Part shown: one piece after another, positions 4,958 through 45,654 of the stretch | Layout: every line of letters begins with the position of its first letter | Numbering within the stretch: the first letter of the stretch is position 1 | The notes under the pieces: generated by a model | Databases searched by the model: none | Told to the model about the DNA's origin: nothing | The model's input: only the letters and a program-made list of their open reading frames with translations | DNA from: a virus | Virus record (IMG/VR): IMGVR_UViG_3300022391_000001 | Span: 41,470-105,469 of that record | Reading direction: 5' to 3' (one strand) | DNA: 64,000 nt | Translations under genes and position numbers: made by a program

Positions 4958-5004
4958 GGCTGACTCCCTTGTACAACTTGTCCAACGAGCCTGGTTTGAA
5001 ATAA

Positions 5005-5032
5005 GGCGGGTGCCTTCTCGGAGGTGCCCGCC
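5005..5032 (-). terminator. Putative terminator hairpin
   Basis: On the minus strand GGCGGG pairs with CCCGCC and CCT with AGG, with a symmetric two-base mismatch, followed by TTATTTC. It lies just after the stop at 5044 and before the WGR gene. The weak T-run suggests partial termination, so the WGR gene may depend on read-through. Confidence 0.5.
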
Positions 5033-5043
5033 CACCTCCCTTG

Positions 5044-5238: not shown

Positions 5239-5241
5239 GAC

Positions 5242-5433
5242 CTACTCCTTGCCGATGTCGCCGTTGAGGATGAGCTGGCGCTCCCAATGGGATAGCGTCC
5301 GGAGATCATCGAGTGCCTTGCGGTAGGCTCGCTGATACGCCTCATAACCGGTTCTTGAGGATGTTAGCTGGCGATGTGCCTTCCAATAGCGTCGGGCTTT
5401 GTCGATAACCTGATCCGTTGTTGCTTTCTTCAT
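5242..5433 (-). CDS. Hypothetical helical protein, 63 aa
   Basis: First gene after promoter P1. GGAGTCGACC precedes the ATG, a variant of the recurrent start region. The sequence is basic and helical with several Tyr and Arg residues. No family recognised; a small early host-interaction protein would fit the position but is only a guess. Confidence 0.6.
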   Translation of the reverse strand: MKKATTDQVIDKARRYWKAHRQLTSSRTGYEAYQRAYRKALDDLRTLSHWERQLILNGDIGKE

Positions 5434-5465
5434 GGTCGACTCCGTTCTTTCCTTGTCCTACCTAT

Positions 5466-5494
5466 ATCATAAGTCCATCCACTGTAAAAGTCGA
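5466..5494 (-). promoter_or_regulatory. Promoter P1
   Basis: Minus strand: -35 TCGACT (5489-5494), 17-bp spacer, -10 TATGAT (5466-5471). It is one of six near-identical sigma-70-type promoters and shares the spacer core GTGGATGGA with three others. It reads into the small genes at 5433 and 5238. Confidence 0.8.
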
Positions 5495-5504
5495 GTGGAA
5501 GTGG

Positions 5505-5535
5505 CCAAAAAAGTTGGCGCCCAAGGTCGATTTTG
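5505..5535. promoter_or_regulatory. Conserved upstream element, copy a
   Basis: Reads AAAAAAGTTGGCGCCCAAGG then TCGATTTT. It begins 11 bp upstream of the P1 -35 box. Copies at 6653, 9065 and 35710 are in the opposite orientation relative to their promoters. Contains TTGG-CGC-CCAA, a small inverted repeat that could be an operator half-site. Confidence 0.55.
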
Positions 5536-6687: not shown

Positions 6688-7554
6688 TCACGCTTGCGCC
6701 GCTTCATCCATGTCGCTACGGTGGCGAAGATAGACCGGAAACCTGTATGTGGCGACTGCTGTGGGGTCTTTTTGATGCTTGAACTCAACCCAGCGTCCGA
6801 GGTGCCCCGCTTGGTCTGCCCAGATCTCGTGCCGTTGTTCGTCTGTGAAGCCCGTTCCAACTTCCACCTCTGAGCCGTCAGCCATCTCCAGGATCAACGC
6901 TCCGAGCGTACCCTGGAGACGCCGCGTGCCCTCCTGATAGCCCTTGATGCGCCCGTCGGAGCTTGTCCAGGGCTTGCGTTTCATCCACGCTCGGGAGCGG
7001 CGGCCAACGTATACGCCATCGGGGTCCTTGAGCATAGCCCCCTCGAAATTGTGGGCCAAGAACACCTCAAACACCCGCTCCACCTGCGCATCGTCGGACA
7101 CCTCGATGTGGGGTGTAAGCGACACGTTGGCGGCGCACGAGTGCTCGATCAACTCCTGGAGCCTGTCCTTGCGCTCCCGCAGCGGCGTCTCATCCCCGCC
7201 GGGAAGCACCAAGTCAAACGCATAGAACATCAGCGCGCTGCGGTCCATCTCGGGATCTTCAGTCTTGACGAGCGAGGTGGTGGCGTTCCAGGACTCGCTG
7301 AATGCTTCACCGTCGATCACCACCCCGTCCGGATACAGACGATTGGCCTCATCGACCAGCTGATCAGCGATGAAGCCCAGACGGTCGGTGTAGTCCACAC
7401 CGCTCCGCTGTACGACGATGCCGCTAGACACACCGTTGAACACGAGCTGGAACCGATACCCATCCAGCTTCGGCTCTGCCCATAGGGGCCATTTAGCGTG
7501 CTTCTCGGACCACGCCTCTGCGAGCATCATCGTTGGCTTGTGTTTGGTTGCCAT
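6688..7554 (-). CDS. ATP-dependent DNA ligase
   Basis: Seals nicks in phage DNA using ATP. Residues 29-34 are KLDGYR, the adenylation motif with the catalytic lysine. DGVVIDGEAF is motif III, FEGAMLK motif IV and AWMKRKPW motif V. The C-terminal third (about 205-285) is a beta-rich OB domain. At 288 residues it is a minimal ligase without extra DNA-binding domains, as in many phages. The ATG at 7554 follows GAGGAGGG; upstream frame is rejected because it runs into the small gene before it. Confidence 0.9.
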   Translation of the reverse strand: MATKHKPTMMLAEAWSEKHAKWPLWAEPKLDGYRFQLVFNGVSSGIVVQRSGVDYTDRLGFIADQLVDEANRLYPDGVVIDGEAFSESWNATTSLVKTEDPEMDRSALMFYAFDLVLPGGDETPLRERKDRLQELIEHSCAANVSLTPHIEVSDDAQVERVFEVFLAHNFEGAMLKDPDGVYVGRRSRAWMKRKPWTSSDGRIKGYQEGTRRLQGTLGALILEMADGSEVEVGTGFTDEQRHEIWADQAGHLGRWVEFKHQKDPTAVATYRFPVYLRHRSDMDEAAQA

Positions 7555-17843: not shown

Positions 17844-18916
17844 CGCTTGTACAGCTCCTTGTGTATGGCATCCCGCTTCTCGGTGTCCTTTTTCAGCGCC
17901 TTGGCGGCGGCAGGGAGCCCCTGGCCGCCCAATTTCTCGCCCTTGTATTCATAGGCGTTGCCCGCCTTTTTGATGATCCCGTCGGCCACGCCCTGGGCGA
18001 CCAGAGCTTGCTCCTGGTTGATCCCGTGACCATAGTCAATCAGCACTTCCGCCTTGCGAAACGGCGGCGCAATCTGATTCTTCTTGCATTCAACCACAAG
18101 TTTATTGGCCACCTTCTCGCCGTCGGAGTCCTTGTTGGTCGCCACACGCCGGACATCCAGGAGTAGGCTCGCATAGAATTTGGGCGCGTTGCCGCCGGCA
18201 GTCTCGGTGTCATTGCCAAACATCACCATCTTCTTTCGCACCTGGCTGATCCACAGAAGGGCCACATCTTCTTTGGACACCTTGGGCATGAGCTTCGGTA
18301 ACAGCTCCGAGTAGACTCGTGCCTGCGGCGCCATGTGCTTGTCCTCCCACTCGCCCTCATACTGCGCCTTGGTGATGGCCGCGTTCATCGAGTCCAACAC
18401 GATGAGGATTGGGATGCGTTCCCCGCCCTTGCGCAGCTCCGCCGCTCGCTCGATGACCCCTTCACACGTCGCAAACACCGACTCCAAGTGCGGCGGCTGG
18501 GCTAGCACCAATTGATCAATGTTCACCCCGATGGCCCGAGCGTAGTCAGGGTCCAGCTTGTACTCTTTGTCGATGTAGACTGCCACCCCTCCGAGCCGCT
18601 GCGTCTCAGCGACGATGTGCAGCGCAAGCGTGGTCTTGCCGGAGCCCTCCATGCCGTGGAGCAGCGTGAGACGGGAGCGTGGGATGCCGCCGCGTCCAAT
18701 GGCCGCGTCGATGGTCGCGCACTGTGTGGAGATGACGCCCCGGATCTTGATGGCTAGCCCATCGCTCCCGAGCAACATGGCGCTATCGTCGCCCAGCTTG
18801 GAGCGTATGCTATCCAGCACCCCGGTGGCGAAGTCTAGCTTGATGGCCGCTTCGCCGCCGGGTGCTTCTGGAGTCGCCACCGCCACCTGCTTCTTGGTGG
18901 CAGTCTTCTTTGGCAT
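17819..18916 (-). CDS. RecA/UvsX-like recombinase
   Basis: Strand-exchange ATPase. Walker A GMEGSGKTT is at residues 88-96 and Walker B LIVLDS at 171-176; a RecA-type core continues to about 310 with a shorter, Lys-rich C-terminal tail. The sequence before residue 60 is a helical polymerisation segment. TGATG overlap with the ssDNA-binding protein gene. With neighbouring SSB, SbcCD and a possible UvsY it forms a T4-style recombination set. Confidence 0.92.
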   Translation of the reverse strand: MPKKTATKKQVAVATPEAPGGEAAIKLDFATGVLDSIRSKLGDDSAMLLGSDGLAIKIRGVISTQCATIDAAIGRGGIPRSRLTLLHGMEGSGKTTLALHIVAETQRLGGVAVYIDKEYKLDPDYARAIGVNIDQLVLAQPPHLESVFATCEGVIERAAELRKGGERIPILIVLDSMNAAITKAQYEGEWEDKHMAPQARVYSELLPKLMPKVSKEDVALLWISQVRKKMVMFGNDTETAGGNAPKFYASLLLDVRRVATNKDSDGEKVANKLVVECKKNQIAPPFRKAEVLIDYGHGINQEQALVAQGVADGIIKKAGNAYEYKGEKLGGQGLPAAAKALKKDTEKRDAIHKELYKRWQSGTAP

Positions 18917-20109
18917 CAGCCCTTCTTGCCGCCCTTCTTGCCGCCCTTGGCCTTAGTTTTGGCCTTGTCCTTGCCTTTGCCGCCGGAGATCCGATCCAAC
19001 TCGGCATCCAGCGCGTCCAGCCCCAAGTCGTCATCGTCCTGTTTCTTGGTCTTGGACACCACAACTTTCTTGCCCTGCTTCGGCGGCTTCACAGGCTCGG
19101 GCTCCGGCTCATCATCATCGTCGCCTTCATCGTCGCCTTCATCGTCGGCGTCGTCGTCGGCGTCGTCACCTTCATCGTCGTCGGCGTCGTCATCGTCGGC
19201 GTCGTCGGCGTCGTCATCGTCGGCGTCGTCATCGTCGGCGTCGTCGTCATCGTCGGCGTCGTTCTCATCGTCGTCATCGTCGGCGTCGTCGTTCTCATCG
19301 TCGTCGCCGTTCTCATCGTCGTCGTCACCAAAGGCATCATCGTCGGCGTCATCTAGCTTCACGCCAGAGATCATCGCCTGGATATCCTGTGGAGTCTTGA
19401 CCATGTTGGCGACCAGCTTAAACAGGTCGCAATCGCCATTCTCAGCCATCGCCTTCAGGATCTTCTTGCGCAGCTCCTTGGACAACTTCACAGGCTTCTT
19501 GAGGCTTTCGGTGTCAGCCTGGACCTTGTATTTGGTGTCATTCTTTCCGCGCCCTTCGCGGCTGATTCTGGCCAATATCGCGGCGTCTGGATCAGTGATG
19601 TCGCCGTTGTCAAAGAACAGCTCCATCAACCCCTCATACACCGTCTTGCCGCACATGAGCACGGCTGGTTTCTCCGGCAATTTCTGCCACGGCTCCGACT
19701 TGGCGCGACGATGCTTCAACGGCGTGACGCCCCACAGAAAACGAGACTGTGGACGAGCGTTGTCTGCCTCTTCATCGCTCAATTGACCCGTCCGAAGTGC
19801 TTCAGCCATCGGACACTCCGACGGGAGCTTGAAGCCCTTTTTCTTGCGCAAAAATGCCTTGACAAATGGATGCTTGATCACCGGGTTGGCGTCGGTGTCC
19901 AATGATACCACCATCCCGTTGTTCTTGCCCACCCCGAAGTGGACGGTGACGGGCACATAGTTGAGCCCGGCTGTGGGCGGGTGCTCATCGTCATCCCTAC
20001 AGGGAGGATGGATGTACACCAAAGTGTCCCCCTCGGGCGGAGCCCAGAAGTCCCCGCCGCGCTGCTGCGCCTCATAGCCCTTGCGCATACGCCCCATATC
20101 AACGGCCAT
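18916..20109 (-). CDS. Single-stranded DNA-binding protein candidate (gp32-like role)
   Basis: Position before RecA, an N-terminal globular region (about 1-240) with phage SSB-like features (WAPPEGDTLVYIHPP, then a core including CDLF near 235) and an acidic tract support an SSB of the gp32 type; homology is inferred, not shown. Residues about 255-345 are nearly all Asp with some Glu and Ala. Unusually the protein does not end with the acidic tail: a linker and a Lys/Gly-rich basic tail follow. ATG chosen over the adjacent GTG because AAGGAG is better spaced. 397 residues is longer than gp32. Confidence 0.65.
   Translation of the reverse strand: MAVDMGRMRKGYEAQQRGGDFWAPPEGDTLVYIHPPCRDDDEHPPTAGLNYVPVTVHFGVGKNNGMVVSLDTDANPVIKHPFVKAFLRKKKGFKLPSECPMAEALRTGQLSDEEADNARPQSRFLWGVTPLKHRRAKSEPWQKLPEKPAVLMCGKTVYEGLMELFFDNGDITDPDAAILARISREGRGKNDTKYKVQADTESLKKPVKLSKELRKKILKAMAENGDCDLFKLVANMVKTPQDIQAMISGVKLDDADDDAFGDDDDENGDDDENDDADDDDDENDADDDDDADDDDADDDDADDADDDDADDDEGDDADDDADDEGDDEGDDDDEPEPEPVKPPKQGKKVVVSKTKKQDDDDLGLDALDAELDRISGGKGKDKAKTKAKGGKKGGKKG
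19105..19355 (-). repeat. Asp-codon low-complexity repeat
   Basis: About 250 bp built of GAC/GAT/GCC-type triplets (read on the plus strand as gtcgtc, gtcatc and gtcggc units) encoding the acidic tract. Near-tandem units of 9-18 bp make it prone to slippage in whole codons, so tract length may vary between isolates. Confidence 0.8.
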
Positions 20110-20158
20110 CACTCACTCTCCTTGAACTGGTGCTGATGTATTCAATCGTCCCGCAGCG

Positions 20159-21206: not shown

Positions 21207-24200
21207 TTATGCAGCCCGCGCATGTTTGGCTGACTTTTTCAGGAGCTTGATCGCACCGTTGTTCAAGAAATATTGCCAACTTTTCCTGTCTTTCTTGCGA
21301 TCTAGCTGAATTCGGAGATGATTGCCCGCCTTGATGTGCTTCTTGGCACTCGCGTCCCATGCCGACGCAAAGCAGATCACATCGATGTAGTTGCCAATCC
21401 CGTCGATGATGCCAAAAAAGGCCATTTCATTGCTGTTCTTGTCGTACTTCAACCGCACATGGGTAATGACCCCGGTGAACCAACTGCTCAACCCGAGTTC
21501 AAAGAGCTGATTGGTGATCGCGCTGGCGCGAAGCGTCGTGACCACTTCGCCCTCCGCGCCCTTGTATTTGATCTGCTTGTCGGCCCAAGGGTAGGACACC
21601 GACGGGTGCTGGCCTGCTATGATGCGCTCCCAGACAGTCAGCGGTGCCCCCTCGTTCACCTTCTTGCGGTACACTTCCAGATCCAATAGGAAATGGGCGC
21701 GCAAATTCTCATACCGCGCATTGGCCGACGCGTGAACCACCACCGGGGTCCCAACGCCCGCGTCAACCACCTCACGGAAGTCATCAAAGATGTCAAAGTC
21801 AACCTTGATCCGGTTCTGCTTCCCGCCGACATCCTCCACGTTGACATTCGCATACCTCGCTCCCCAGAACATGTCCCGCCGCTCTTCAGCAGACGGAAGC
21901 TCCCCTGTGTGAAAGTCCCCCACCTGGTTGTACTTCACCTCCACAACAACGCCGACGATGAACACTCCGGCTCCGTCGTTGTTCACCCAAAAGTCTTCAT
22001 CGCTCATGGCGGCGATTGGAACCTTGATGTTCTTGGAGATGAAGTCCCCGTATGCATCAACTGGATGCTTCCCAAAGGCCAGAGGGTTGACCTGGGACGC
22101 GATCAACTGCCGCTCTTCATCGGCATAGTCGGGCTCCGCCGCCCATTGCTTCAGAAGCTCCCGAAGCCCCTCCTTGTCCTTCTTGTTGTACACCTTCCAG
22201 AAGTCTTCAATGCCCTCGATGAACTGCTTGATATTGGGCAACATCTCATCGAGCGCTCCCGCGCGGGCCAGCGCCAAGACCACGCCCTTGTGACACTTGC
22301 GCCGGTCCACGCGGGCAAGGAAGTCAAACAGCCCCTTGTAAGGTTGATTCTCCATGATCGTTGTCGCCGCCGCTTCACCAACACCCTTGATGTCAACCAA
22401 ACTCCCCCGGATGGCCCTGCGTCCCGAGTCAATTGCAAACTGCTTCTTGGACATCGACACAGAGGGTGGCAGCAGCTCGATGTCGTGGCGCTTGACATCC
22501 TTTGCGATCTGCTGGATGCGGAGCCGCTGCGGCTCGTTCTTGAGCAGCGCCCAGTAGAATTCAAGCGGATACTTCCGCTTGAGCCACATCCCCCAATAGG
22601 CGATAACTGCATAACATACAGCGTGAGAGCGGTTGAATCCATAGCTGTTGTGTGATTGAAAATATTGAGGATTTGCACCTTTGGAACAGACCAAATAGTT
22701 GGCTAATTCACCACCGTGCTCACACTCGATGTCCCACATCGACTCCACGCCGATATCTCGGACTTCAACCACAACGGCGGAGCTTCCCAACGCCAACATC
22801 CTCACGCCCGGATACAGATCATTGGCTTTCATCCACCCTTTGTCGGTATTCCACCAATGATCTGGAGAGCAAGCAAGAGTCTGGCCGCCTGTGAGCTTGA
22901 TGTCGAATTGCCGACGCACGCCCGTCCTAGCAACCGTCTTGACTCTGTTTTCGGTTGGCCGCCCCTCGGAATCCAAGGACACGATTGAATCGCCTGGCTT
23001 CAAGTCGCTGATTGCTTTCGTTTCAGCCTGTAACTCCGAGAATAATGCATCGAACACATGTTCTTGCTGTATGTGACTCTGCCGCACCCCAAATAAATGC
23101 ATATCGGCTCTTGCCGTTTTGAGCCCTTCAGATGATAGGATGTGTGCGGCCCTCGTGCTGTTATCTCCAGATTGTCCAGAGTGTTGTTCGTCGTGTCGCC
23201 GTCGATATGATGCACCATCTCTCTGGACAACAGCTTCCGACCAATCATCTTTTCCATGGCCACTCTGTGCTCCAGCTCCCAGCCATTCTCCGTCTTGATC
23301 GTCAAGTAACCATTCTGCTTCCCCTTGTCGCCAATTTTCTTCTTGCAAGTTGGCGCGCCGCGCTCCGTTGTCAACTCTAAATTGTCGATGTCGTTGTTCA
23401 TCGGATCGCCGTCCTTGTGGATCACTTGCTCCCGATTTGTCAACCGCCGGCCTATCTTCTGCTCCATGAGCCATCGATGCTCTCTCACCCATCCCCTCTT
23501 TGTCTTCACATCCATGTATTTGCCGTCGCGTCGGCGGCTCCCTATTGGCTTGGCTTTCGGCATCCTCTTGACTCCCGTTGTCGTTTCGTTTAGCTTCTAA
23601 CGAAACGACAACGCAAGAACAAGAGGGCAAACAACCAAAAAAAGTTATCGCGTCCATCACCCGCCCAGCGGTCTTGGCGTCCATACCGCAAGTTGCCTTC
23701 GCGCCCTCGATGAAATTTTGACGCTCCTTGCCAATAGTCTCGTCGCCCCACTTCTTTGCGATCTTTTTCCTGAGTGAGTCAGCGGTGGCCGGAGGGAACC
23801 CGGCGACCTGTGTGAAAATCTTCAGCACATGCTCCTGGTACACGATGATCCCGAGGGTGTCCTTGGTGATCTCATCTACCAACGGGTGGCCAAAGGCTGA
23901 CTTCTTGATCAGCTTCGGGTCCTTTTTGCGCGCCACGTACTGGGTGGCCAAGCCCGAGCGTGCGGTGCCCGGTCGATTCAGCGCTGTCATCGCAGCGATG
24001 TCTTCAAAGTTGTTGAACTCAACGCCTGAGCAAATCTTGTCGGCGCCCGGGGAATCGTATTGGAAGATCCCCACATAGTCATGGTCTGTGAACCCCTGGA
24101 GCACATCAGGCTCGTTGAGGTCCAACTTCTCCAAGTCGATGTCCACCCCGTGCCGCTCCTTGATCGCCTTCACGCAGTCGTTCAACACGGTCAGAGTCCG

Positions 24201-26078
24201 GAGCCCGAGCACATCGAGTTTAAGCAGCCCCATCGCCGCCACGCCATACATGTCGATGGCGCTGACCACGACATCCTTGCCCTCGTGCTTCCGGATCTCC
24301 AATGGAACCAGATCCGTGAGCGGCACCGGTGATGTAATCACCCCGGCGGCGTGTATGCCGAGGGTCTTGGCCATCCCCTCCAGCCGCTTGGCGTGACGGA
24401 GCACGTCTGGATACTTCGCGTTGAATTCCTGACACACCTTGAATTCAGCGAAGCTGTCCTCAATGGTCTGGCTGGCCCGCTCATCGCCGCTGCTCCGCTC
24501 GATGATCGAAGCGGTGACCGCGTTCACCTCGGCATAGGGCACGTCCAGGACTCGGGACACATCCTTCAGGCACTGCTTCCCTGACAGTTTACCCACTGTC
24601 GCGATCTGACACACCTTGTCGGCGCCATACTTCTCACGCAAGTGGTCGATGATCTCCTGGCGACGCACATCCTCAAAGTCCATGTCGATGTCGGGCATGT
24701 CGATACGACTGGGTGAGATGAACCGCTCAAAGATCAACCCGTGCTCGATGGGGTCCACGGAGGTGATGCCCAGCAGGAATGAGACGATTGAACCGGCGGC
24801 GGAGCCCCGCCCTGGCCCGCAGGCGATGTTCTGGCGTCGCACCCAATCATACAAGTCTCGGACCAGCAGGAAGTAACCGATGAACCTCTGCCGCTTGAGC
24901 GCCCCCAATTCCATCTTCAGACGGTCCCGGTAGATGGCGACGGCTTGGGCCGGCGGCATCTTCATCCGGCGGGCATAGGCGGCTGCCCGGCTCGGGATAT
25001 CCCGCCAGCTCCAACCTCCGATGCACAGCTCTTTCAGGTACTGATACTGCTGTGCATCTGTGGCGTCATATCCGCCATATTCACTCGGGAGCCGAAGCGC
25101 CGGCATCAAGCACGCGAAGCGGTCGATGTTGATGATCTTCGGCTCGATCATGCTATTGAACAGCAGAGTGTTGTCCAATGCCTCCTTGATGACCTTGTCA
25201 GACATGAATTCATGGTTATCTTGGAAGGCTGTCTTCATCTCCGCCCGAGTCCGGAGGTGAAACTCATTGTTGCCGAAGCGGAACCTGTCTGGGTTGGACA
25301 TCCTGTCCCCGGTCCCGATACAGAGCATCACCTCGTGGGCGTCGGCATCCTTCTGGTCGACATAGTGGGCGTCTTGCGTCGCCAACAGGCGTGCGTGCTT
25401 GCCCCAACGCTCCCGGAGATCCAATGCGAATTGGTTGGCCAACCGTTGATCGTCGATGGCGTGCGGTTGCACCTCCAGCCAGAGGTCTTCACCGAAGCGC
25501 TCCCGCAGCTTCTCGGCGTCGGCCAATGCCATCCGCTTCTTGCCCGTCGCAACCCGGTCGTTGATCGGCGATGACAAGCAACCGGTGGCAACCGCCAATC
25601 CGTCGCCGTGTTCCATCAGCGCCTTGAGGTCGATGCGCGGCTTGTAGTAGAATCCCTCTGTCCAGCCCATCGTGGACAGCCGATACAAGTTGCGGAGCCC
25701 TTCGGCGTTCTTGGCCCAGACGGTGATGTGCCACCGGTCCCGGATCCCCCAGTGCTCCTCATACCCCTTGACGGCGTTCTTGGCGTCGGCGCGATTCATC
25801 CCCTGGGTGATCTCCGCCCGCTCTTCAGGCGTGATCCCCTTGCGATGCATGTCCATCGCGACATAGAATTCAATCCCGTATATGGGCTTGACGCCGTGCT
25901 CCTGGCACTCCAACAGCTGCTGGTAATATCCGCGCATCGTGCCGTGGTCGGTGATCGCGATGGCTGGCGCTCCGCGCTCCTTGGTCGCCTTGACATAGTC
26001 GGCGACCTTGCCGCAACCGTCCAATTGGCTCATATCCGCGTGTACGTGCAAGTGGACAAAGTCTTCAGCCTTTGACAC
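21207..26078 (-). CDS. dnaE: DNA polymerase III alpha (DnaE) containing an intein
   Basis: Replicative polymerase of the C family; 1623 codons of which 1294 are host protein. PHP domain at the N-terminus (HLHVHAD, residues 9-15). Polymerase core with GPGRGSAAGS (421-430), PDIDMDF (462-468, two catalytic Asp) and GLLKLDVLGL (third Asp). After residue 815 an intein interrupts the protein before SYGFNRSHA; the fingers, HhH and OB domains follow. GTG start with GGAGGG upstream. No separate proofreading subunit was recognised nearby, so proofreading may lie in PHP or come from elsewhere. Confidence 0.92.
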   Translation of the reverse strand: MSKAEDFVHLHVHADMSQLDGCGKVADYVKATKERGAPAIAITDHGTMRGYYQQLLECQEHGVKPIYGIEFYVAMDMHRKGITPEERAEITQGMNRADAKNAVKGYEEHWGIRDRWHITVWAKNAEGLRNLYRLSTMGWTEGFYYKPRIDLKALMEHGDGLAVATGCLSSPINDRVATGKKRMALADAEKLRERFGEDLWLEVQPHAIDDQRLANQFALDLRERWGKHARLLATQDAHYVDQKDADAHEVMLCIGTGDRMSNPDRFRFGNNEFHLRTRAEMKTAFQDNHEFMSDKVIKEALDNTLLFNSMIEPKIINIDRFACLMPALRLPSEYGGYDATDAQQYQYLKELCIGGWSWRDIPSRAAAYARRMKMPPAQAVAIYRDRLKMELGALKRQRFIGYFLLVRDLYDWVRRQNIACGPGRGSAAGSIVSFLLGITSVDPIEHGLIFERFISPSRIDMPDIDMDFEDVRRQEIIDHLREKYGADKVCQIATVGKLSGKQCLKDVSRVLDVPYAEVNAVTASIIERSSGDERASQTIEDSFAEFKVCQEFNAKYPDVLRHAKRLEGMAKTLGIHAAGVITSPVPLTDLVPLEIRKHEGKDVVVSAIDMYGVAAMGLLKLDVLGLRTLTVLNDCVKAIKERHGVDIDLEKLDLNEPDVLQGFTDHDYVGIFQYDSPGADKICSGVEFNNFEDIAAMTALNRPGTARSGLATQYVARKKDPKLIKKSAFGHPLVDEITKDTLGIIVYQEHVLKIFTQVAGFPPATADSLRKKIAKKWGDETIGKERQNFIEGAKATCGMDAKTAGRVMDAITFFGCLPSCSCVVVSLEAKRNDNGSQEDAESQANREPPTRRQIHGCEDKEGMGERASMAHGAEDRPAVDKSGASDPQGRRSDEQRHRQFRVDNGARRANLQEENWRQGEAEWLLDDQDGEWLGAGAQSGHGKDDWSEAVVQRDGASYRRRHDEQHSGQSGDNSTRAAHILSSEGLKTARADMHLFGVRQSHIQQEHVFDALFSELQAETKAISDLKPGDSIVSLDSEGRPTENRVKTVARTGVRRQFDIKLTGGQTLACSPDHWWNTDKGWMKANDLYPGVRMLALGSSAVVVEVRDIGVESMWDIECEHGGELANYLVCSKGANPQYFQSHNSYGFNRSHAVCYAVIAYWGMWLKRKYPLEFYWALLKNEPQRLRIQQIAKDVKRHDIELLPPSVSMSKKQFAIDSGRRAIRGSLVDIKGVGEAAATTIMENQPYKGLFDFLARVDRRKCHKGVVLALARAGALDEMLPNIKQFIEGIEDFWKVYNKKDKEGLRELLKQWAAEPDYADEERQLIASQVNPLAFGKHPVDAYGDFISKNIKVPIAAMSDEDFWVNNDGAGVFIVGVVVEVKYNQVGDFHTGELPSAEERRDMFWGARYANVNVEDVGGKQNRIKVDFDIFDDFREVVDAGVGTPVVVHASANARYENLRAHFLLDLEVYRKKVNEGAPLTVWERIIAGQHPSVSYPWADKQIKYKGAEGEVVTTLRASAITNQLFELGLSSWFTGVITHVRLKYDKNSNEMAFFGIIDGIGNYIDVICFASAWDASAKKHIKAGNHLRIQLDRKKDRKSWQYFLNNGAIKLLKKSAKHARAA
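23000..23563 (-). CDS. Tandem-HNH homing endonuclease nested in the DnaE intein
   Basis: 187-residue protein read in a different frame from DnaE. Two copies of an HNH_3-type unit: EHRWLMEQKIGR with HKDGDPMNNDIDNLEL, and EHRVAMEKMIGR with HHIDGDTTNNTLDNLEI. A C-terminal Cys cluster (C-x5-C, C-x2-H with YSKNMCSMHY) resembles the zinc finger found beside phage HNH nucleases. GGGAG is eight bases before the ATG; the stop lies inside the continuing intein code. Likely drives homing into intein-free alleles. Confidence 0.88.
   Translation of the reverse strand: MPKAKPIGSRRRDGKYMDVKTKRGWVREHRWLMEQKIGRRLTNREQVIHKDGDPMNNDIDNLELTTERGAPTCKKKIGDKGKQNGYLTIKTENGWELEHRVAMEKMIGRKLLSREMVHHIDGDTTNNTLDNLEITARGPHTSYHLKGSKRQEPICIYLGCGRVTYSKNMCSMHYSRSYRLKRKQSAT
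23577..23612. promoter_or_regulatory. Perfect hairpin before the nested HNH gene
   Basis: Stem GTTGTCGTTTCGTT and its exact complement AACGAAACGACAAC, 14 bp, with an 8-base loop. On the mRNA it ends directly before the GGGAG ribosome binding site of the HNH gene and lies within intein codons for VVVSLEAKRNDN. It could tune translation of the endonuclease or mark an insertion boundary. Confidence 0.8.
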
Positions 26079-35733: not shown

Positions 35734-36909
35734 TCATGCAACATCGCCACCGAAATAGCGCTGAATCAGGTTATCCACGAATTTGGCGTCATCAGCTGAC
35801 AGCTTGTTGACGACGGTGATCTGCGCGGCGCGGCGGGCATCGCGCATCCGGACTGCCTTGCTAGCCCACGCGATCAGCCGGCGAGTGCTGAAGGTGCAGT
35901 AGCACATCTCGTTGGCAAGGGCTTCTCGGACCTTGGATGCGATGGTGACCATCTTCTCTGCGATGGCCCGATTCACGCGGGTGCGATTCATCAGGATCTC
36001 AACCTCTGTCTCCTTGGCGGGATAGTTTGCCTTGATGACCACGCCGAAGCGGTCCAGGGTTGCCTCGTTGATCACGTTGGTGCCGGCGTACAACCCGGTG
36101 TCGTCGCCGCGCCCGTTGGTGTTGTCGGTCGCCATGAAGCGGAAACTGGCGTGAGGCACGACCACTTCGCCGCCGTTGTCGGTGAGCACGAGCGGCTTGC
36201 CTTCCAGGACGGCTTGGAGCTTCATGAGGATGCCGGCCGGAGCGGCGGTGATCTCGTCAAGCAGGAGCCACCAGCCGTTGCGCATCGCTTGGGGCAGGAG
36301 CCCGTCGCGCCAAACGGTCGTGCCGTCGGCGGCGATCTCGTGGAAGCCCACAAACTCGGCAGTGGTAAAGCGCTGGTTGAGCTGGACTCGGACGCAAGGC
36401 TGGTTGAGCATCGCTGCCAGCTCTTCAACGAGCGTGGACTTGCCGCAGCCGGTTGGACCGTAGATGAACGCGGGGCTGTTCTCTTCAACGGCCAACCCCA
36501 ACTCCTCCAACATCTGCTCCTCAGTCTTGCCGACCATCCAGTTGGGATTGTGCTTCGGCACGTACACGCCGTCATCGGCTCCGAGGTCCCGGCGGATCTT
36601 GAGCTGGACGCAACCGAAGTGGAGGGTGTCGGGCGAAGCGACGGGCTTGGCTTCCTCAATCGGGTATCCCGTCGGCGACGTCACCGGCTTGGGCGCGGTG
36701 ACCTTGTTCTGACCGGATTTGGCGCGGTGACGCGCCGTCGCGCTGATTGTCGGAGCCCCGGGGAAGCGCTCGTTGTACTCTGCGACGTTGGTCTTGTGCG
36801 CGAAACCGAGGTGCGCGTCTAGGCGGTGATACCAACACTCGCACAACTTACATTGGATCTTCTCGGAGCCGTCTTTGTCGAAGCGCTCGTGCTTAGCGTC
36901 CTTGGCCAT
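35734..36909 (-). CDS. CobS-like AAA+ ATPase (MoxR class)
   Basis: AAA+ ATPase with Walker A GPTGCGKST (about residues 154-162), Walker B LLLDEI, a sensor FMATDNT and an arginine-finger region after NEATLDRF. The N-terminus has a Cys-x2-Cys/His cluster (CKLCECWYHRLDAHLGFAH) of a C2H2-like finger. 391 residues. MoxR/CobS ATPases act with VWA proteins, here the adjacent gene. Own promoter P6 and AGGAAGTCAGCC start region. Confidence 0.88.
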   Translation of the reverse strand: MAKDAKHERFDKDGSEKIQCKLCECWYHRLDAHLGFAHKTNVAEYNERFPGAPTISATARHRAKSGQNKVTAPKPVTSPTGYPIEEAKPVASPDTLHFGCVQLKIRRDLGADDGVYVPKHNPNWMVGKTEEQMLEELGLAVEENSPAFIYGPTGCGKSTLVEELAAMLNQPCVRVQLNQRFTTAEFVGFHEIAADGTTVWRDGLLPQAMRNGWWLLLDEITAAPAGILMKLQAVLEGKPLVLTDNGGEVVVPHASFRFMATDNTNGRGDDTGLYAGTNVINEATLDRFGVVIKANYPAKETEVEILMNRTRVNRAIAEKMVTIASKVREALANEMCYCTFSTRRLIAWASKAVRMRDARRAAQITVVNKLSADDAKFVDNLIQRYFGGDVA

Positions 36910-37022: not shown

Positions 37023-38042
37023 CTATGCCCTAAGTGCACGATCTTGTTGATACCGATCAGCCAACTTTCTTTGGGCTGAGGCCAATGAAGCGGCCAAGCG
37101 AGCACTCCGCCCACCGGTGTAGCGCTCCGCCGACTCAACCGCCATCCTTGCTTGGTTCCTAGTTGCCGAACCAGGGTCAACCCCATCCGGCAGGCGAGCA
37201 ATGTGGACCGATCCAAACCGACATGTGAGTTGTCGGGCCACGTCATAGGGCGCCGTCTGCTCTTCAGGGTCCAACATCACCGTGATTCCGGCGTCCACAG
37301 GCTTGGCCAACAACATTTCCAGCTGCTCTTTGTGAAGCACCTTGCCCATCAGGGCCAACGCCGGGATGCCGTGCTGCCATAACTTGATGGCGTCCAATGG
37401 CCCCTCAACCAATGCAACGTCGCCATCGAGCGGCGCGTGCTTCCACCCCAACAAAAGGCGCCCGTGGTTGGCGCCCGCTGGGTTCAGGTATTTCGGTTCC
37501 TGCTGGCCCGTCATGTCCCGAGCGGTGAAGCTCCGCCCGTTGGGACACTCGACAGGGATGATGAGACGGCACGCAAACCTGCCTGTGCGGGCCCAACCGA
37601 GCCCCCATTCACGTGCCGTCTCACGCGTCACCCCTCGCTCCCGCAGATACACCGGCATCTTCCATTTCCCTGCTCTGAAGACTGGTATGAACTCGGATGG
37701 AAGCTCCGTGTTCTGCTGAACCTCGGGCTGCTCGCCCCCTCGCATTGCCAGCAAGCGCTGAAGCAACGTCTGCGGAGTCCCTTGCCGCCGGAATTGGACT
37801 GCCCGCCGGAGGATGTATTGGCGTGCCTCGTTGCGGGTGATCCCCTCGACACGCGCAATCAATCCAACCAGCCAGCGTCCCCGCTCCTGGCACTTGAAGC
37901 AGATGTAGTGGCCCTCCTCAGCGTCCACGTAGAATCGGCCATCCTTGCCGCACCAAGGGCACCGCCCCACATACTGATTGGACCCGTTGAGCCTGGCGCC
38001 CTCGATGTGACTCTGACACCATTCTTTGACGTCAAACTGCAT
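37023..38042 (-). CDS. DnaG-type primase
   Basis: Makes RNA primers on the lagging strand with the phage helicase. Zinc ribbon CPWC (28-31) and CFKC (48-51); Toprim acidic motif VEGPLDAIK at 212-220 and MLDPE at 256-260. 339 residues, shorter than bacterial DnaG (about 580) and without its C-terminal helicase-binding domain of usual size. TGATG overlap with the kinase gene sets the start at MQFDVKEW; longer N-terminus rejected. Confidence 0.88.
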   Translation of the reverse strand: MQFDVKEWCQSHIEGARLNGSNQYVGRCPWCGKDGRFYVDAEEGHYICFKCQERGRWLVGLIARVEGITRNEARQYILRRAVQFRRQGTPQTLLQRLLAMRGGEQPEVQQNTELPSEFIPVFRAGKWKMPVYLRERGVTRETAREWGLGWARTGRFACRLIIPVECPNGRSFTARDMTGQQEPKYLNPAGANHGRLLLGWKHAPLDGDVALVEGPLDAIKLWQHGIPALALMGKVLHKEQLEMLLAKPVDAGITVMLDPEEQTAPYDVARQLTCRFGSVHIARLPDGVDPGSATRNQARMAVESAERYTGGRSARLAASLASAQRKLADRYQQDRALRA

Positions 38043-38665
38043 CAGCTGATCTTCGCTTGGACGGCTCTCACCGCTTCCATGATCGCCTTGTGGACCTGGC
38101 CAACTTCCGCGTCTGCATTGACGATCGGCCAAGTTTGCTTGCCGTGGATCTCCTGCTCCGCCATCCGCTTCCAGAACCACCGATAACGCTTCACCACCTT
38201 CTCCATCAACCCCGGTTGCTGCTCGTATCGGTCCCTACGCTCCGGCCGTCGCTCCGCTGAAACAGAGGGCTCCGCATCCAACAGAATATGGATATCGGCC
38301 TTGGGCAGATAAGCGTGCATGACCACGAGTTGACGGGAGTCCAATCCATCCTCCGCCCCATAGACCACGCCGGAGGGCCACCACCGATCGGCGACCGCAT
38401 TGACCATCATCTTCTTGGTCCAAGCGATCGTGTCCGCGTGCTCCATCTGATTGGCGAGCTGAAGCGCCTGGAACACCAGTGCGTTGGTCATCCCGTCGGC
38501 GTCGGGCTCCGCCCTCCACTCCCGATTCAGATGCGCATAGATCAGCTTCCCCACTGGCGTCTCAACATCCGGAAACTTGAACAGCTTTGCGTTCATCCGC
38601 TTCTTCAGCAGCTCCGCCTGCGTGGACTTCCCACAAGCGTCAATCCCTTCCAGCACCACAAACAT
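38042..38665 (-). CDS. Thymidylate-kinase-like protein
   Basis: P-loop EGIDACGKST at residues 6-15; DRWWPSGVVYG as the DR motif with a lid region (RPERRDRYEQQPG). 207 residues, typical of Tmk. Starts with the MFVVLEG ATG overlapping the upstream stop. Makes dTDP from dTMP or acts on another pyrimidine monophosphate. It is the second such kinase in the window and lies within the replication cluster. Confidence 0.85.
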   Translation of the reverse strand: MFVVLEGIDACGKSTQAELLKKRMNAKLFKFPDVETPVGKLIYAHLNREWRAEPDADGMTNALVFQALQLANQMEHADTIAWTKKMMVNAVADRWWPSGVVYGAEDGLDSRQLVVMHAYLPKADIHILLDAEPSVSAERRPERRDRYEQQPGLMEKVVKRYRWFWKRMAEQEIHGKQTWPIVNADAEVGQVHKAIMEAVRAVQAKIS

Positions 38666-39845: not shown

Positions 39846-40102
39846 GTCCCCGTCTTGCAATTTCTCCCCCGTGCGTCATCTCTGTTCTTCACATCCCAAC
39901 GCCAAGAATTCAGATTGGCGCAACACCCTTCGCTGATGTACAATTCATAGCGCCATTCAGCCGCTTGCTGGCACACGTATCGCCCTCGCTCTTCATCCCA
40001 CGCCAACGCCGGGCAGTCCAAGAGCCCCCACTTGGCCAATGACAAGGGGCACGGGACTTTGATGCAGCACCATCCGCAACCGACACAAGGATGGGTCTTC
40101 AC
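39842..40102 (-). CDS. YkgJ-like cysteine-rich protein, 86 aa
   Basis: GTG start in a GTGA overlap with the helicase gene. CVGCGWCC at residues 6-13, another Cys in KVPCPL, then CPAL and YVC resemble the YkgJ-type Fe/Zn-binding family. Short for that family. Role in phage is unknown. Confidence 0.55.
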   Translation of the reverse strand: MKTHPCVGCGWCCIKVPCPLSLAKWGLLDCPALAWDEERGRYVCQQAAEWRYELYISEGCCANLNSWRWDVKNRDDARGRNCKTGT

Positions 40103-41487
40103 GCTTCTCGCTCCTGCTCCGCTTCAGCGATGTACATGCGCGTGAACTCCGCTTCCAACGGGAATGTGATGTCACCTTTGCCGTCCCGGTATTTGGCCAG
40201 ATACAGCTCCATGTGCTTTGTGTCGGGCTTCAGCGGTCCCTCCGTCGGCGCTGCCTCTTCACCGTCGTCATCGTCTATGGACACCCGCGTTGAGCGGGTG
40301 CGCTTCTCGGGCGTGTTCAGGGTTATGACCAGGTCAGCGATGCGCGCCTTGTCGTAGGACTCGGCGGTTGCCTCTGCCTTGGCGATCTTGTCCTTCCACT
40401 CCTTGCCCGCCTGCGTGGAAGTCCACACACCGTAGCCCTCGCCAGCGAGCCCGGCGATGTCCCAGTACACCTCCGCCTGCTGGAGCCTATGTGACTCAAA
40501 CCGCCCCACGCCGCGCATGTGATCGGCGGAGTCCAAGATGATCACCTTGGGGTGAAAGTCGTGCTCCGTCCGCAGATCATCCAACGCGGCGCGCACGGTG
40601 TTGATATCACACCGGCGAAGCGGCATCTCAACGATATGGAGCAACCCCTCAAACTGCTTCAGCGCCTTGCCCTGCTTTGCCTCCAGCTGGCGAAGCTCCG
40701 AAGGTTTGAAGTCATATTCCTTGAACTTCTTGTATTCCATACGTGACCAGCGGGAGTCCATCCGCTGAGCAATCTGGAACAAAGGCATCTCAAGGCTGAA
40801 ATACACCGTGGGATAGCCCCGGGCGATGGCGTTGTAGGTGAGGTTGCTCAGGACGATGGACTTGCCCACGCCCGTCGTTGCGACCACCAGACCTAGCTCG
40901 CACAGCTCCAGCCCTCCACTCAGGATCCGGTCCAGTCGCTTGAACCCGGTTGGGATGCGTGTCCACTCTTCAGGGTGCTCCCGGCGACGCTTCCGCTCCA
41001 TCTGCCGGTGCTGAAAGTCCGAGATCCACTCAATGCTGTTGTAGTCCCGTGGCTTGAGCTCCCGGTCCACCGCCGACCGCAACGCCTTGTACACATCATC
41101 CACTTGGCCCTTCTCCAGCGACCTTGCCGCTGCTTCCATGGCCAGTTGGGCGTTGACCGTGCGGACAAACTCCGAGAGTTGATCCAGCGATGCCAAAGCC
41201 GCCTTGGGCTGGCGCCGAATGAGCTTGCGCACCAACTCCAGGTGAACCGCTCGCTCCCCATCCTCACGGAAGTCCACCCGCGCCCGAGCGATCAAGTGCG
41301 CGGCGGTGGTCTGCTCCCGGTATTTGGTCCAGATCTCATAGATCCCCTTCCACACCCATGCGTGCTGCGGAGTGTTGAAATGGTGCTCCGCCACCAACCG
41401 CGCTGCCCGTTTCAAATAGTCTTTGTCACGCAGCGCGCGACAAAGGATGTCCTCTTCAAACTCCTGATCCAGAATCAGGTTTGTCAT
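40099..41487 (-). CDS. DnaB-like replicative helicase
   Basis: Hexameric 5'-3' helicase. N-terminal primase-interaction domain (about 1-110), linker, then RecA-like domain with Walker A ATTGVGKS at about 203-210 and Walker B VIILDS at 315-320. 462 residues, normal length. Overlaps the loader gene by 32 bases. With initiator, loader and primase it makes a phage-owned primosome. Confidence 0.92.
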   Translation of the reverse strand: MTNLILDQEFEEDILCRALRDKDYLKRAARLVAEHHFNTPQHAWVWKGIYEIWTKYREQTTAAHLIARARVDFREDGERAVHLELVRKLIRRQPKAALASLDQLSEFVRTVNAQLAMEAAARSLEKGQVDDVYKALRSAVDRELKPRDYNSIEWISDFQHRQMERKRRREHPEEWTRIPTGFKRLDRILSGGLELCELGLVVATTGVGKSIVLSNLTYNAIARGYPTVYFSLEMPLFQIAQRMDSRWSRMEYKKFKEYDFKPSELRQLEAKQGKALKQFEGLLHIVEMPLRRCDINTVRAALDDLRTEHDFHPKVIILDSADHMRGVGRFESHRLQQAEVYWDIAGLAGEGYGVWTSTQAGKEWKDKIAKAEATAESYDKARIADLVITLNTPEKRTRSTRVSIDDDDGEEAAPTEGPLKPDTKHMELYLAKYRDGKGDITFPLEAEFTRMYIAEAEQEREA

Positions 41488-42196
41488 ATCCCATCTCGCG
41501 CACCATCTCGGCGCCTTGGTTGCGGCGATAATCCCCAGGCTCCATACAGACTGTGTAGAACCTCCCCTGTAGCATCGACTTGACCGTTGGCCCGTATGCT
41601 TGATGCAGATGTTGCAATGACAAATTGGTGGCGAAGATCACCGGCATTGAATCATCAAGTCGCTCCTTGAACACTCGTTCCAACTGAGCGTCCATATACC
41701 GATTGGACGCCTTCACCCGCTCCTTGCCCAGCTCATCGATCACGACAAAGTCAGAGGTCAGCATCAGAGACAGCCTACGTTGCCGCTCTGCGTCGTTGAA
41801 ACCTGCCTTGATGTCTAGGTCCAGCTGTGGCATCGTCGTGTAGTACGCGGTGAACGAGGCACGCAGAGCACACACGATCACGTATGAGCAGAACATCGTC
41901 TTGCCGGTCCCGTTGTCCCCGGTCAGCAGCAGACCATACCCATGCTTCAACGCCCGACGGAAGTTGGCCACATACCGGCGGATCACGAGGTCAAACGCCT
42001 GCCGATTGTGTTTGACCTGATCATCCTTCACATACCAGAATTGCCTGGGCACGCAGGATTCATATGCTTCCAGAGCGTATTCAAACTGCTCCCGGCACGA
42101 ACATCGCCTGCCCCGTCCCTCGCACTTCCGGCACAAAATGACGTGCCGGAAATAGGCTCGGGCTCTGAATTCTTCCACCTCCGCCTCAGTCCTCAT
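41456..42196 (-). CDS. DnaC-like helicase loader (AAA+)
   Basis: Walker A GDNGTGKT at 93-100, Walker B VVIDELG at 151-157, sensor IFATN at 187-191. The N-terminal 35 residues have CRKC and CSC, a small zinc site. 246 residues matches DnaC/DnaI. Placed between initiator and helicase genes, as lambda P is after O. The ATG at 42196 (MRTEAEVEEF) overlaps the previous gene end. Confidence 0.85.
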   Translation of the reverse strand: MRTEAEVEEFRARAYFRHVILCRKCEGRGRRCSCREQFEYALEAYESCVPRQFWYVKDDQVKHNRQAFDLVIRRYVANFRRALKHGYGLLLTGDNGTGKTMFCSYVIVCALRASFTAYYTTMPQLDLDIKAGFNDAERQRRLSLMLTSDFVVIDELGKERVKASNRYMDAQLERVFKERLDDSMPVIFATNLSLQHLHQAYGPTVKSMLQGRFYTVCMEPGDYRRNQGAEMVREMGYDKPDSGSGV

Positions 42197-44051
42197 GATA
42201 CATATTCTCCGCCGCCCACTGCACCCAAACGTCGTGCTTGCCCACGAACACGACTGCGCCTGCCCCTCGGGACATGGCGGCACTCTGGACAGACATCAAG
42301 TAGCGATCTGAAACCCCGCTGATGTCAAAGCCCGCTGACTCCAACCCCGGTCGGAGTCGAGGGTCCAACTTGGTCACATCGCCATAAGAATGGCGATTGG
42401 ACGCGCCCTCTGCGCCGGCCTTGAAGTCCCCGGCTCGCCATTGACGCCCCTTCTCGCTCGTCACCTCCATCGCCTGGCACGCCACCCGGTCCACGTTGGT
42501 CGGCGAAGTCAAGAATGTGATCGGGGGCACACGAAGCTTCGCGTCAGCGAAGTGCTTGATCTGCACGTGCCAGTATTCCAGCACCTGGCGTGGCGTCACG
42601 GAATACTGGAGACAGAGGATGGCCGCCGCGATGGCGTGTTTTTTCTCCTTGGCGTTGAACTCATAGTTGACCACCCGTCCCGTCTCACGCTGGTCCATCC
42701 GGCGATATCGGCTGTAGATGCGGGCATACTCGTCACCCAGCTTGCTGACCAGCTCCCGCCGCTTCGGGTTTTGGGGCGACAGCCTCAGCGTCTCCAGCAT
42801 CTCAACCCGTTGCGCATCGGAGGGCTCGAATGTGACCTGTGGACGCCCCCTCTGGTCCAACTTGGTCCAGTCAATCGGTTGCTTCGCCGCCGCCGCTTCC
42901 GCCACACGCTGGGCTGAGGCTGCCTTGCGCTTCCCCGCCTGCTTCTCGGCGCCTGCTCGCATCGCCGACATGTCCACGCCAGTCTTCTTTGGCGTGGGTG
43001 GCGTGGGTGCTTTTGCACTTCCTGATACTTTACGCCTAGTTATAGCCTGCCCCCCCTTATCCGATAGGGATCTAGGGGTTAAGGATCTAGGGGTTAAGGA
43101 TCTAGGGGTTAAGGATCTAGGAATAGGATCTAAGGATCTAGGTTCTAAACTACTAGCCACTTCTGCGAAACGATGGGTGGAATTAGAACAATCGCTGGGG
43201 ACTCTCACATGATTCTTGTCTTTCTTGGTGTTTTTCGCCATAGGGGTCTTTTCGCTCGATGATGCTGTTCTTGTCCGGTCTTGTGCGCTTCGCGCACATG
43301 CAGATTCTGTCGAATCTGCTTGTTCTTCATAGGGTTTTTGATTTGTGCTATCCTTCTTGAGTGCTTCGATGAAACAACGAACAGCAGAACTGCCACAATA
43401 TATTGGGTTGCCTAAGGGGTCATGATAGGACATTAAACCAAGATTCAGCTTCCCAAGCGGGATTTTCAGTGAGTGGCCGGTGTTTTGATCAAAAAACCTT
43501 ATATTTCCATCATCTATGCCATGAAGTGCAGCCGATTTGCTAGTGGATTTTCCACCCATCCCGTCGTTCCCAGCCGGTGGAGAGTCGTTTTTAACCGATG
43601 GCACCAGCTTCCCGCCCGTGAGATTCATCCGAACGTCTGGTGGGATGTCCTCTGCTCGGGCGAAGTCTATGTCATCTTCACGCAACAAATCGTCCGCAGC
43701 CAAGACGCCGATGTTGGAATCAGGGATCAGATGGCGGGTGAGCTTCACGAGCCGGTTGGGCCCAGAGATGAGGGCTCGCTTCAGGATCTTGACGACAGTG
43801 GGGACTCCGATTGCCTCACGGTAGATCTCGATGTATCCCTTGTCGTGAAGCTCCTTGAGGATGACCGACGCTCGCCCCTCGGACAACCCCAAGATCTCGG
43901 CCACCTCTGGACGCCCACGAGACAACTCCGAGTCCGAAGCCACCTGGAAGCGCATCCAGGCTGAGAACCCTTCTTGCGACAGCTCCAGGTAGGCTTGTTG
44001 GATGGTGGCGTGGCCCTTGGCAAAGATGTTGGGATCAGGCTCTTTAACCAT
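42186..44051 (-). CDS. Putative replication initiator (lambda O-like role)
   Basis: Residues 5-95 are a winged-helix domain (SRGRPEVAEILGLSEGRASVILKELHDKGYIEIY). The middle is low-complexity, with RSLTP repeats at about 302-328 that come from the 15-bp DNA iterons. The C-terminal 250 residues are globular with helical content. Position directly before loader and helicase genes, and internal iterons, argue for an initiator that binds its own coding DNA. 621 residues is larger than lambda O (about 300). The MVKEPDP start is the first ATG after the leader hairpin. Confidence 0.7.
   Translation of the reverse strand: MVKEPDPNIFAKGHATIQQAYLELSQEGFSAWMRFQVASDSELSRGRPEVAEILGLSEGRASVILKELHDKGYIEIYREAIGVPTVVKILKRALISGPNRLVKLTRHLIPDSNIGVLAADDLLREDDIDFARAEDIPPDVRMNLTGGKLVPSVKNDSPPAGNDGMGGKSTSKSAALHGIDDGNIRFFDQNTGHSLKIPLGKLNLGLMSYHDPLGNPIYCGSSAVRCFIEALKKDSTNQKPYEEQADSTESACARSAQDRTRTASSSEKTPMAKNTKKDKNHVRVPSDCSNSTHRFAEVASSLEPRSLDPIPRSLTPRSLTPRSLTPRSLSDKGGQAITRRKVSGSAKAPTPPTPKKTGVDMSAMRAGAEKQAGKRKAASAQRVAEAAAAKQPIDWTKLDQRGRPQVTFEPSDAQRVEMLETLRLSPQNPKRRELVSKLGDEYARIYSRYRRMDQRETGRVVNYEFNAKEKKHAIAAAILCLQYSVTPRQVLEYWHVQIKHFADAKLRVPPITFLTSPTNVDRVACQAMEVTSEKGRQWRAGDFKAGAEGASNRHSYGDVTKLDPRLRPGLESAGFDISGVSDRYLMSVQSAAMSRGAGAVVFVGKHDVWVQWAAENMYHED
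43068..43147. repeat. Iteron array inside the initiator gene
   Basis: Tandem copies of AGGATCTAGGGGTTA: nearly perfect copies from 43068, 43082 and 43097, then three shorter or diverged ones at 43112, 43125 and 43133. Unit length 15 bp keeps the codon frame (RSLTP). Every copy has the palindromic GATC-TAG core. Flanking sequence downstream in the gene direction is AT-rich in places. Candidate phage replication origin. Confidence 0.75.
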
Positions 44052-44235: not shown

Positions 44236-45654
44236 CTACTCGACCACTCGGATATTGAAGGCAGGCTCCGCCCGGTAGGACGCCAGACGCTCCGCCGAAT
44301 GGCCAGCAAAGTATGGGTTTGTGGTGTCCATGAAGTCAATAAATATGGCCTCTGTTTTGCCGGCGTGCGGCGTCATATTTCGCATCCGCTGGACGCTCGC
44401 CTTCATGTCGCGGCCACCCTCCGCGTTGATAACCACTTCAACTTCAGGGATGTCGATGCCTTCACCAAAAACGGTCCCGATCAGGATCGGACACGATCGG
44501 GAAGTGAACGCCTCGACATTCTCCGCCCTGGTCTCGGAGCGGTCCTTGCCGGTGACCGCTCGATGGTCCAACCCGGCGGCGGTCATCTTCTCGGCGAGGT
44601 CCCGGATCTGGTTCAGCCGATTGCTCACGATCAGCACAGACAGCCCTTCTCGGACCTTCGCCGCCGCCAGCTCCACTATCTTGCGGTTGCGCCAATCGTT
44701 CATGTAGATCAATTTGTCCCGAAGCTCTTGGGACCACTTCCAATCCTTGAACCCTTGGGGCTCATTGCAGCGATGCAGCTCCACGTTCTGGCGCATCAGA
44801 TAGCCCGCTTCAATCAGCCGCGTCGTGGACACGTCAATCCGGATCTCGCCACAACAGCCGCGAAGCCAGATCACCCCTCGCTCCTGCTCCCGCTTGGAGT
44901 CGAAATACACAGTGGCGCTGAGGCCCACCCTGTAGCACGCTCCGAGGTCCATCACGACCTTGTGCCAGACATCCCCTCGGAGGTGGTGGGACTCATCGAA
45001 GATCACCAGGTCATAAGTCTTGGCCACGTGCCTGTATCGTGGTTCCCCTCGGACCTTGCTCAGCGTCTGGACGGTCGCCACCGTAACGCATTTTTCATCC
45101 CAATGTGAATCGCCTATCCTGCCAACGTTGAAACACAGTGCCTCGCTCAACGAGGCGTGCGTCTGGTGGAGAAGCATCTGGGACGGCACGATGAAAAGGG
45201 TCTGCTTGCCCAGCCGGTGGATCAGCCCCGCCGCTGTCTTTGTCTTGCCGGAGCGGATAGGCATCTTCAAGATGCCGAGCCCGGTCTCAACCCCGGGCTC
45301 CGTGATCGCTTCGATGGCCTCCATCTGGTAGTCACGGAGCTTGATCCCGTCATTCCACTCATACCGGACATCGTGGGCCGATGGTCGGCGCTGATTGTCC
45401 AACCGGTAGGGGACCTCCATGTCATCGAACGTGAGCAGGACGGTGCGCAGGAGCCCGATGGGGACTGAATAGCCTCGCTGCGCGTGGTAGGTCATCAGGT
45501 GCTCTCGCCCGTCCCAACGTCCGTTGCGGAATGACGGCGCGAAGCGATGACCTGCGACTGGATAGCTGGTGGCCCTGCTCAACGTCCGGATGATCTGGCG
45601 CGAAGCTCCGTTGATGAGCAGGTGACGGTTTGTTGCTGTTAGCTCGATGACCAT
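44236..45654 (-). CDS. UvsW-like SF2 helicase
   Basis: DEAD-type helicase/ATPase. Motif I PIRSGKTKTA (SGKT), motif II FDESHH (DESH), motif III LSAT, motif VI-like SVQRMRNM. An N-terminal domain (about 1-100) precedes the motor, as in T4 UvsW, which processes stalled forks and R-loops. 472 residues. Between lysis genes and replication genes. ATG has only GAGC upstream, so the start is somewhat uncertain. Confidence 0.85.
   Translation of the reverse strand: MVIELTATNRHLLINGASRQIIRTLSRATSYPVAGHRFAPSFRNGRWDGREHLMTYHAQRGYSVPIGLLRTVLLTFDDMEVPYRLDNQRRPSAHDVRYEWNDGIKLRDYQMEAIEAITEPGVETGLGILKMPIRSGKTKTAAGLIHRLGKQTLFIVPSQMLLHQTHASLSEALCFNVGRIGDSHWDEKCVTVATVQTLSKVRGEPRYRHVAKTYDLVIFDESHHLRGDVWHKVVMDLGACYRVGLSATVYFDSKREQERGVIWLRGCCGEIRIDVSTTRLIEAGYLMRQNVELHRCNEPQGFKDWKWSQELRDKLIYMNDWRNRKIVELAAAKVREGLSVLIVSNRLNQIRDLAEKMTAAGLDHRAVTGKDRSETRAENVEAFTSRSCPILIGTVFGEGIDIPEVEVVINAEGGRDMKASVQRMRNMTPHAGKTEAIFIDFMDTTNPYFAGHSAERLASYRAEPAFNIRVVE

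Follow-up and report, generated by a model that had tools for sequence, protein, structure and literature searches.

A candidate intragenic iteron origin of replication in a new family of phage initiator genes

The window analysed here, that is, the whole 64,000-nucleotide stretch of viral DNA presented above, very probably contains an intragenic iteron origin of the lambda O and pSK41 Rep design, in which the product of a new initiator family would bind repeats in the middle of its own gene and start replication there (Table 1). An earlier note on this DNA had placed the repeats within a 621-codon gene that precedes loader and helicase genes, and this was borne out: translation from the ATG at 44051 on the minus strand yielded 621 codons, followed by the genes of a DnaC/IstB-type loader and of DnaB. 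The complete order reads UvsW-type helicase, initiator, DnaC/IstB-type loader, DnaB and, further on, DnaG. GC content averages 58.6% across the window and drops to its minimum in the 200-bp windows at 43301 and 43351 (42.5 and 43%).

Table 1. Coordinates of the putative origin, the initiator gene and the neighbouring replication genes in the window
Feature	Coordinates	Strand	Basis
Repeat array (iterons), six GGATCTA cores	43068..43147	+	Word count, Tandem Repeats Finder, shuffles
AT-rich stretch adjoining the array, with the 200-bp windows of lowest GC in the 64 kb	43151..43550		GC scan
Hairpin, 7-bp stem, C(GAA)G triloop	43282..43298	-	Class enriched in the region across relatives
Second hairpin, 8-bp perfect arms, 4-nt loop	43300..43319		Fold scan
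Initiator gene, 621 codons: winged helix, low-complexity linker, conserved C-terminal domain	42186..44051	-	Translation, Pfam/PHROG, family alignments
Winged-helix coding part, residues 17-106, proposed iteron-binding domain	43734..44003	-	Model, fold matches
C-terminal domain coding part, proposed loader/helicase recruiter	42189..42884	-	20-sequence alignment, model
UvsW-type helicase, upstream neighbour of the initiator, also in relatives	44236..45654	-	Profile matches
DnaC/IstB-type helicase loader	41456..42196	-	PF01695 E 2e-10, phrog_50 E 2.7e-27
DnaB-type replicative helicase	40099..41487	-	phrog_19 E 9.5e-60
DnaG-type primase	37023..38045	-	phrog_47 E 3.8e-43

Word counts located GGATCTA on the plus strand of the window at 43068, 43083, 43098, 43113, 43126 and 43134 and nowhere else on that strand, the six cores being packed into 73 bp with spacings of 15, 15, 15, 13 and 8. 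Three opposite-strand copies are scattered over the window (41339, 45939 and 59187), and the 105,469-base record contains GGATCTAGG five times, always within the array. None of 60 dinucleotide shuffles of the 859-bp gene middle reached six GGATCTA, and the array count exceeded all 60 at every word length tried. Six 15-bp copies had been claimed for this array; its presence and the six cores were confirmed, but only three full 15-bp units were found. Indeed, Tandem Repeats Finder delimited 3.6 perfect units, the remainder consisting of the shorter cores at spacings 13 and 8. Similarly, the idea that the unit length keeps the reading frame and makes an RSLTP peptide applies to the three perfect units, which encode RSLTP in frame, but not to the array throughout, because core 5 sits in a codon phase different from that of the others. 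The unit also uses rare codons, TTA and AGA accounting for 1.9% of Leu and 3.9% of Arg codons, respectively, in 18 other genes.

The proposed DNA-binding part of the initiator was modelled as a winged helix with a mean pLDDT of 81.7, and the isolated N-terminal piece matched HTH_24 in Pfam (5.3e-5). All six family members scanned matched a PHROG annotated as 'DnaD-like helicase loader' (best E 5.4e-4). The first five Foldseek rows for the N-domain model were plasmid initiator N-domains, headed by 4pql, 5kbj and 4pt7, which we take to be RepA_N proteins (E 7e-4 to 2e-3 in the first rows, TM about 0.5); a plasmid initiator match scored Z 9.5 (4.9 A, 89 residues), a value at which MarR-type regulators tie. 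PDB matches by sequence were set aside as chance. The last 232 residues form a conserved, helical C-terminal domain (model mean pLDDT 88.6), for which the family scans returned no named family, and Foldseek and VIA no usable fold match, an absence that in itself proves nothing. The family is new and undescribed, and apparently separate from the known intragenic-iteron initiators; a search of the open-licence literature retrieved no account of it, nor of a C(GNA)G hairpin at a phage origin.

Single-protein scans of IMG/VR with the window initiator and helicase yielded no relative; a CobS-like neighbour (35734-36909) gave access to a 105,429-base contig whose genes are in the same order, and further loci came from alignment-based scans in which the C-domain and the loader served as queries. 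Among the 31 sequences scanned with profile models, 20 (the window and 19 IMG/VR loci) encode winged helix, C-domain and loader in this order. The near-duplicates L028 and L044 were dropped, and counts are given over 18 loci; the contigs of L023 and L048 do not include the N-part, and L077 was a later find. Among the recovered loci there was no close relative of the window phage. Since tblastn of the window, L046 and L038 initiators and of the L044 C-domain against 50,697 phage records gave no match, and two scans of bacterial and archaeal genomes no family member, the family is known here from metagenome contigs only.

Comparison of these loci revealed that the middle region is consistently low in GC (below the value of the locus in 20/20) and often repetitive. 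Clear arrays of differing sequence occupy the same place in 7 of the 18 loci (window, L013, L014, L033, L046, L049 and L057), four others carry suggestive ones (GATTGGA in L003, AATTTAA in L010, GTAACGAATAGTCG in L043 and two TTACC in the gap of L026), and the same array test found none in seven (L009, L029, L031, L032, L038, L039 and L045). The array of L013 consists of six CCAAAGTTTA in both orientations, spaced by 17, 22, 21, 154 and 21, that of L033 of four CAGTCGGACTTTCC spaced by exactly 22, 22 and 22 bp, and that of L014 of three to four TTCTATCCCA, whereas L046, L049 and L057 share four TTACC-type iterons spaced by 21, 21 and 20 bp. This spacing breaks the frame in the fused genes of L033, L013 and L046/L049/L057, the fourth TTACC core of the last three falling in another codon phase. 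Their TTACC cores are invariant (20/20 columns), as compared with 56% of all columns and 23/52 of the other array columns. The earlier note had counted relatives that keep the peptide and lose the DNA repeat as evidence against an origin, and the opposite was observed: place, low GC and often the array are kept. The conservation that it had proposed checking where the peptide varies was also evident, the array often remaining at the same place while peptide, repeat sequence and frame are not kept. As for further motifs in this region, L026 holds its two TTACC, like the L046/L049/L057 iterons, at 7534-7554 in the gap of a split locus, although these phages are not close. In L046, L049 and L057, the winged-helix part is directly followed by the arms GTTCTCG and CGAGAAC, which are separated by about 24 nt and enclose the best conserved linker DNA (first 24 columns 96% invariant), possibly another site.

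Winged helix and C-domain reside in separate open frames in 7/18 loci, with 10 to 622 bp between them. Placed on the loader tree, these splits require about five changes, at least three of which are forced by well-supported branches, and they do not define a single clade. Most or all of the repeats of L014, L003, L043 and L026 are inside the gap between the halves, and in L077 the winged-helix frame stops before the linker. Low GC, arrays of unrelated sequence, broken frame, invariant TTACC cores and gene splits agree, and on this comparative ground we conclude that the linker is constrained as DNA and not through its peptide or reading frame. The protein-coding content of the linker would then be minor, the linker being a stretch of the gene obliged to hold the origin. 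The gap between the L045 initiator halves also holds, at 6908-6944, an inverted repeat whose 17-bp arms match perfectly around a TTT loop.

The middle region is further distinguished by small hairpins with a C-G-closed loop of GAA, GGA, GTA or GCA, a class defined after seeing the data and counted on either strand when the stem comprised six Watson-Crick pairs, or five plus two G.A pairs. There are 13 such C(GNA)G hairpins in 10,720 middle-region bases versus 12 in 264,000 bases from other parts of these loci, and they occur in 12/18 loci versus 11/432 control windows, a count in which related loci are not independent. Equally low-GC control windows contained one in 4/50 cases, and ORF-free DNA elsewhere had 1 in 8,578 bases. 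In nine loci the hairpin lies 14-62 nt before the C-domain; that of the window is a positional outlier, being located across the array from that position, at a distance of 401 nt from the C-domain. In local fold energy it ranks 36 of 11,630, but taken alone it is not significant because the window holds six such hairpins. In the L046/L049/L057 stem, 2/10 pairs change on both sides, a pattern matched in 51/500 shuffles and drawn from three sequences only; by eye, both sides of the stem changed synonymously from L046 to L049 (TTA to TTG and AGT to AGC). The G.A-interrupted hairpins of L013 and L033 were not predicted by nearest-neighbour folding, the partial locus L023 has a 5-bp C(GAA)G stem only, under threshold by eye, and the middle region of L077, the one complete later locus, is devoid of a C(GNA)G hairpin. 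By eye, L077 presents instead, at 2300-2365, tandem ACAGAC repeats and, after them, a TAT triloop on an 8-bp stem, both situated between winged helix and C-domain. Taken as a class, the C(GNA)G hairpin is probably a structural part of the origin.

Splits and hairpins could alternatively be for the most part by-products, the former of assembly errors and the latter of transcription, acting as RNA hairpins or terminators and not as DNA parts of an origin. All relatives are indeed uncurated metagenome contigs, some hairpins fall within transcribed gaps, and both the post hoc definition of the class and the later L077 speak for such caution. We nonetheless consider this explanation unlikely, because the seven split representatives are always interrupted at the linker, with frames that restart, and belong to more than one clade, and because gaps reaching 622 bp are not single-base errors. 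Moreover, GNA triloops are 27-fold enriched in the region as compared with 3.3-fold for other C-NNN-G triloops, and terminator-like sites, among which the second hairpin of the window scores, number 3 versus 2.3 expected by shuffle.

The promoter hairpins of the N4 virion RNA polymerase have loops of the C(GNA)G class. Like them, the hairpins of the window and of 12/18 loci combine a perfect stem with this triloop; unlike them, they are situated in the initiator linker, and their stems, which differ between loci, are mostly 7-10 bp. The N4 hairpins, whose 3-nt loop features a sheared G:A pair, are described to extrude at sub-physiological superhelical density (PMC4496689). This analogy invites a bolder reading, which we offer tentatively as the less probable outcome: a three-part origin, hitherto undescribed as such, made of exchangeable iterons, an AT-rich stretch and an extruding C(GNA)G mini-hairpin that would mark the entry point of loader, helicase or primase, with initiator halves repeatedly parted into two genes around the origin and an origin that dictates the middle of the gene. 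If this were true, the hairpin would pop out of supercoiled DNA as in N4 promoters.

Among known systems, lambda provides the closest anatomy together with RepA_N plasmids. In lambda, iterons and an AT tract make up an origin placed centrally in the O gene, with the loader gene next to it (PMC7466680), so that in both phages iterons within an initiator gene adjoin AT-rich DNA. The same array test recovered the known iterons of lambda O at spacings of 20, 24 and 23 and codon phases 0, 2, 2 and 1, a disregard of the reading frame shared with the fused relatives. The lambda-type origin proposed earlier is upheld as to anatomy, with the lambda iterons passing the same test, but not as demonstrated homology: hhalign against lambda O gave non-significant probabilities of 1.5% (N-terminal domain) and 0.1% (C-terminal domain), and the O-like PHROG 345 was matched by 2/6 N-domains (best E 0.02). 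Further differences are that this phage has its own DnaB and DnaC/IstB-type loader, that the AT-rich stretch of the window is on the other side of the array, towards the 5' end of the gene, that the initiator gene may be split in this family, and that the C(GNA)G hairpins present here were not found in a 3-kb lambda stretch.

RepA_N plasmid initiators are an equally good model. The rep gene of pSK41 carries four Rep boxes centrally, the linker they encode is dispensable, and Rep has a winged-helix N-domain and a separate helical C-domain, as described in PMC5703833. Repeats in the central part of the gene are common to RepA_N initiators and the window gene, whose product is likewise predicted to have a winged helix at the N-terminus and a helical C-domain. 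On the other hand, the Pfam families listed for the six N-domains (E up to 1) do not include RepA_N, the searches gave no usable fold match for the C-domain of the window protein, that of RepA_N being DnaD-like and binding DnaG, and the gene is part of a phage module that includes a loader and a helicase of its own.

By this design, several initiator copies would bind the GGATCTA repeats through the winged helix and strain the adjoining AT-rich DNA until it opens. The C-terminal domain would bring the phage DnaC-type loader, which would place the phage DnaB on the opened strand, and primase and DnaE might then join. We also examined GC skew, as the earlier note had suggested. The window has no turning point, but at fourfold sites the sense-strand G excess is higher downstream than upstream of the initiator in 6/7 genomes, mostly by little: 0.050 versus -0.013 in the window, 0.203 versus 0.029 in the L003 genome and 0.107 versus -0.037 in the L010 genome, with differences of 0.016 to 0.022 in three further genomes and a reversal by 0.042 in the L026 genome. 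This shift weakly follows the direction expected of a two-way origin.

Such weak skew support leaves some room for autoregulation only, whereby the initiator would bind the repeats to repress or pause its own operon, as intra-operon binding sites can do, and replication would start elsewhere. We regard this as improbable: the region is located well within the gene or, where this is split, between the two parts (in the window, the start codon is about 0.9 kb away), no promoter-like site was found near the array, and the low-GC stretch with loader, helicase and primase genes is what an origin module features. Neutral tandem duplication, or selection for the RSLTP peptide, in a disordered linker would suit three perfect in-frame units, as after a recent duplication, but is very improbable and already contradicted for the family, in which relatives keep the place and not the peptide, and arrays may break the frame, run in both orientations or fall in non-coding gaps.

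Intragenic iteron origins are already known from lambda and RepA_N plasmids; what the putative origin described here adds is an apparently separate initiator family, carried by phages of about 105 kb with their own helicase, loader and primase. Its evolution is visible, with iterons replaced between lineages and the frame broken several times while the place is unchanged, and because it can be watched, why an origin sits in the initiator gene becomes a directly testable question. The hairpin gives a concrete prediction on strand opening, and the loci found allow origins to be proposed for a group of related phages.

Some observations concern other genes of these phages. The DnaE-type polymerase frame of the window (21207-26078, minus strand) has a long intein-like insert that by eye begins at a CLPSCSCVV stretch and encloses an HNH-like open frame (23000-23563, by eye). 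The UvsW-type helicase of L013 (3777-6308) likewise appears by eye to carry an intein-like insert, inside which there is an HNH-like open frame (4885-5529). Finally, a long run of TCG/TCA-type repeats at 19115-19326 of the window corresponds to the acidic, Asp-rich tail of the protein encoded at 18916-20112.
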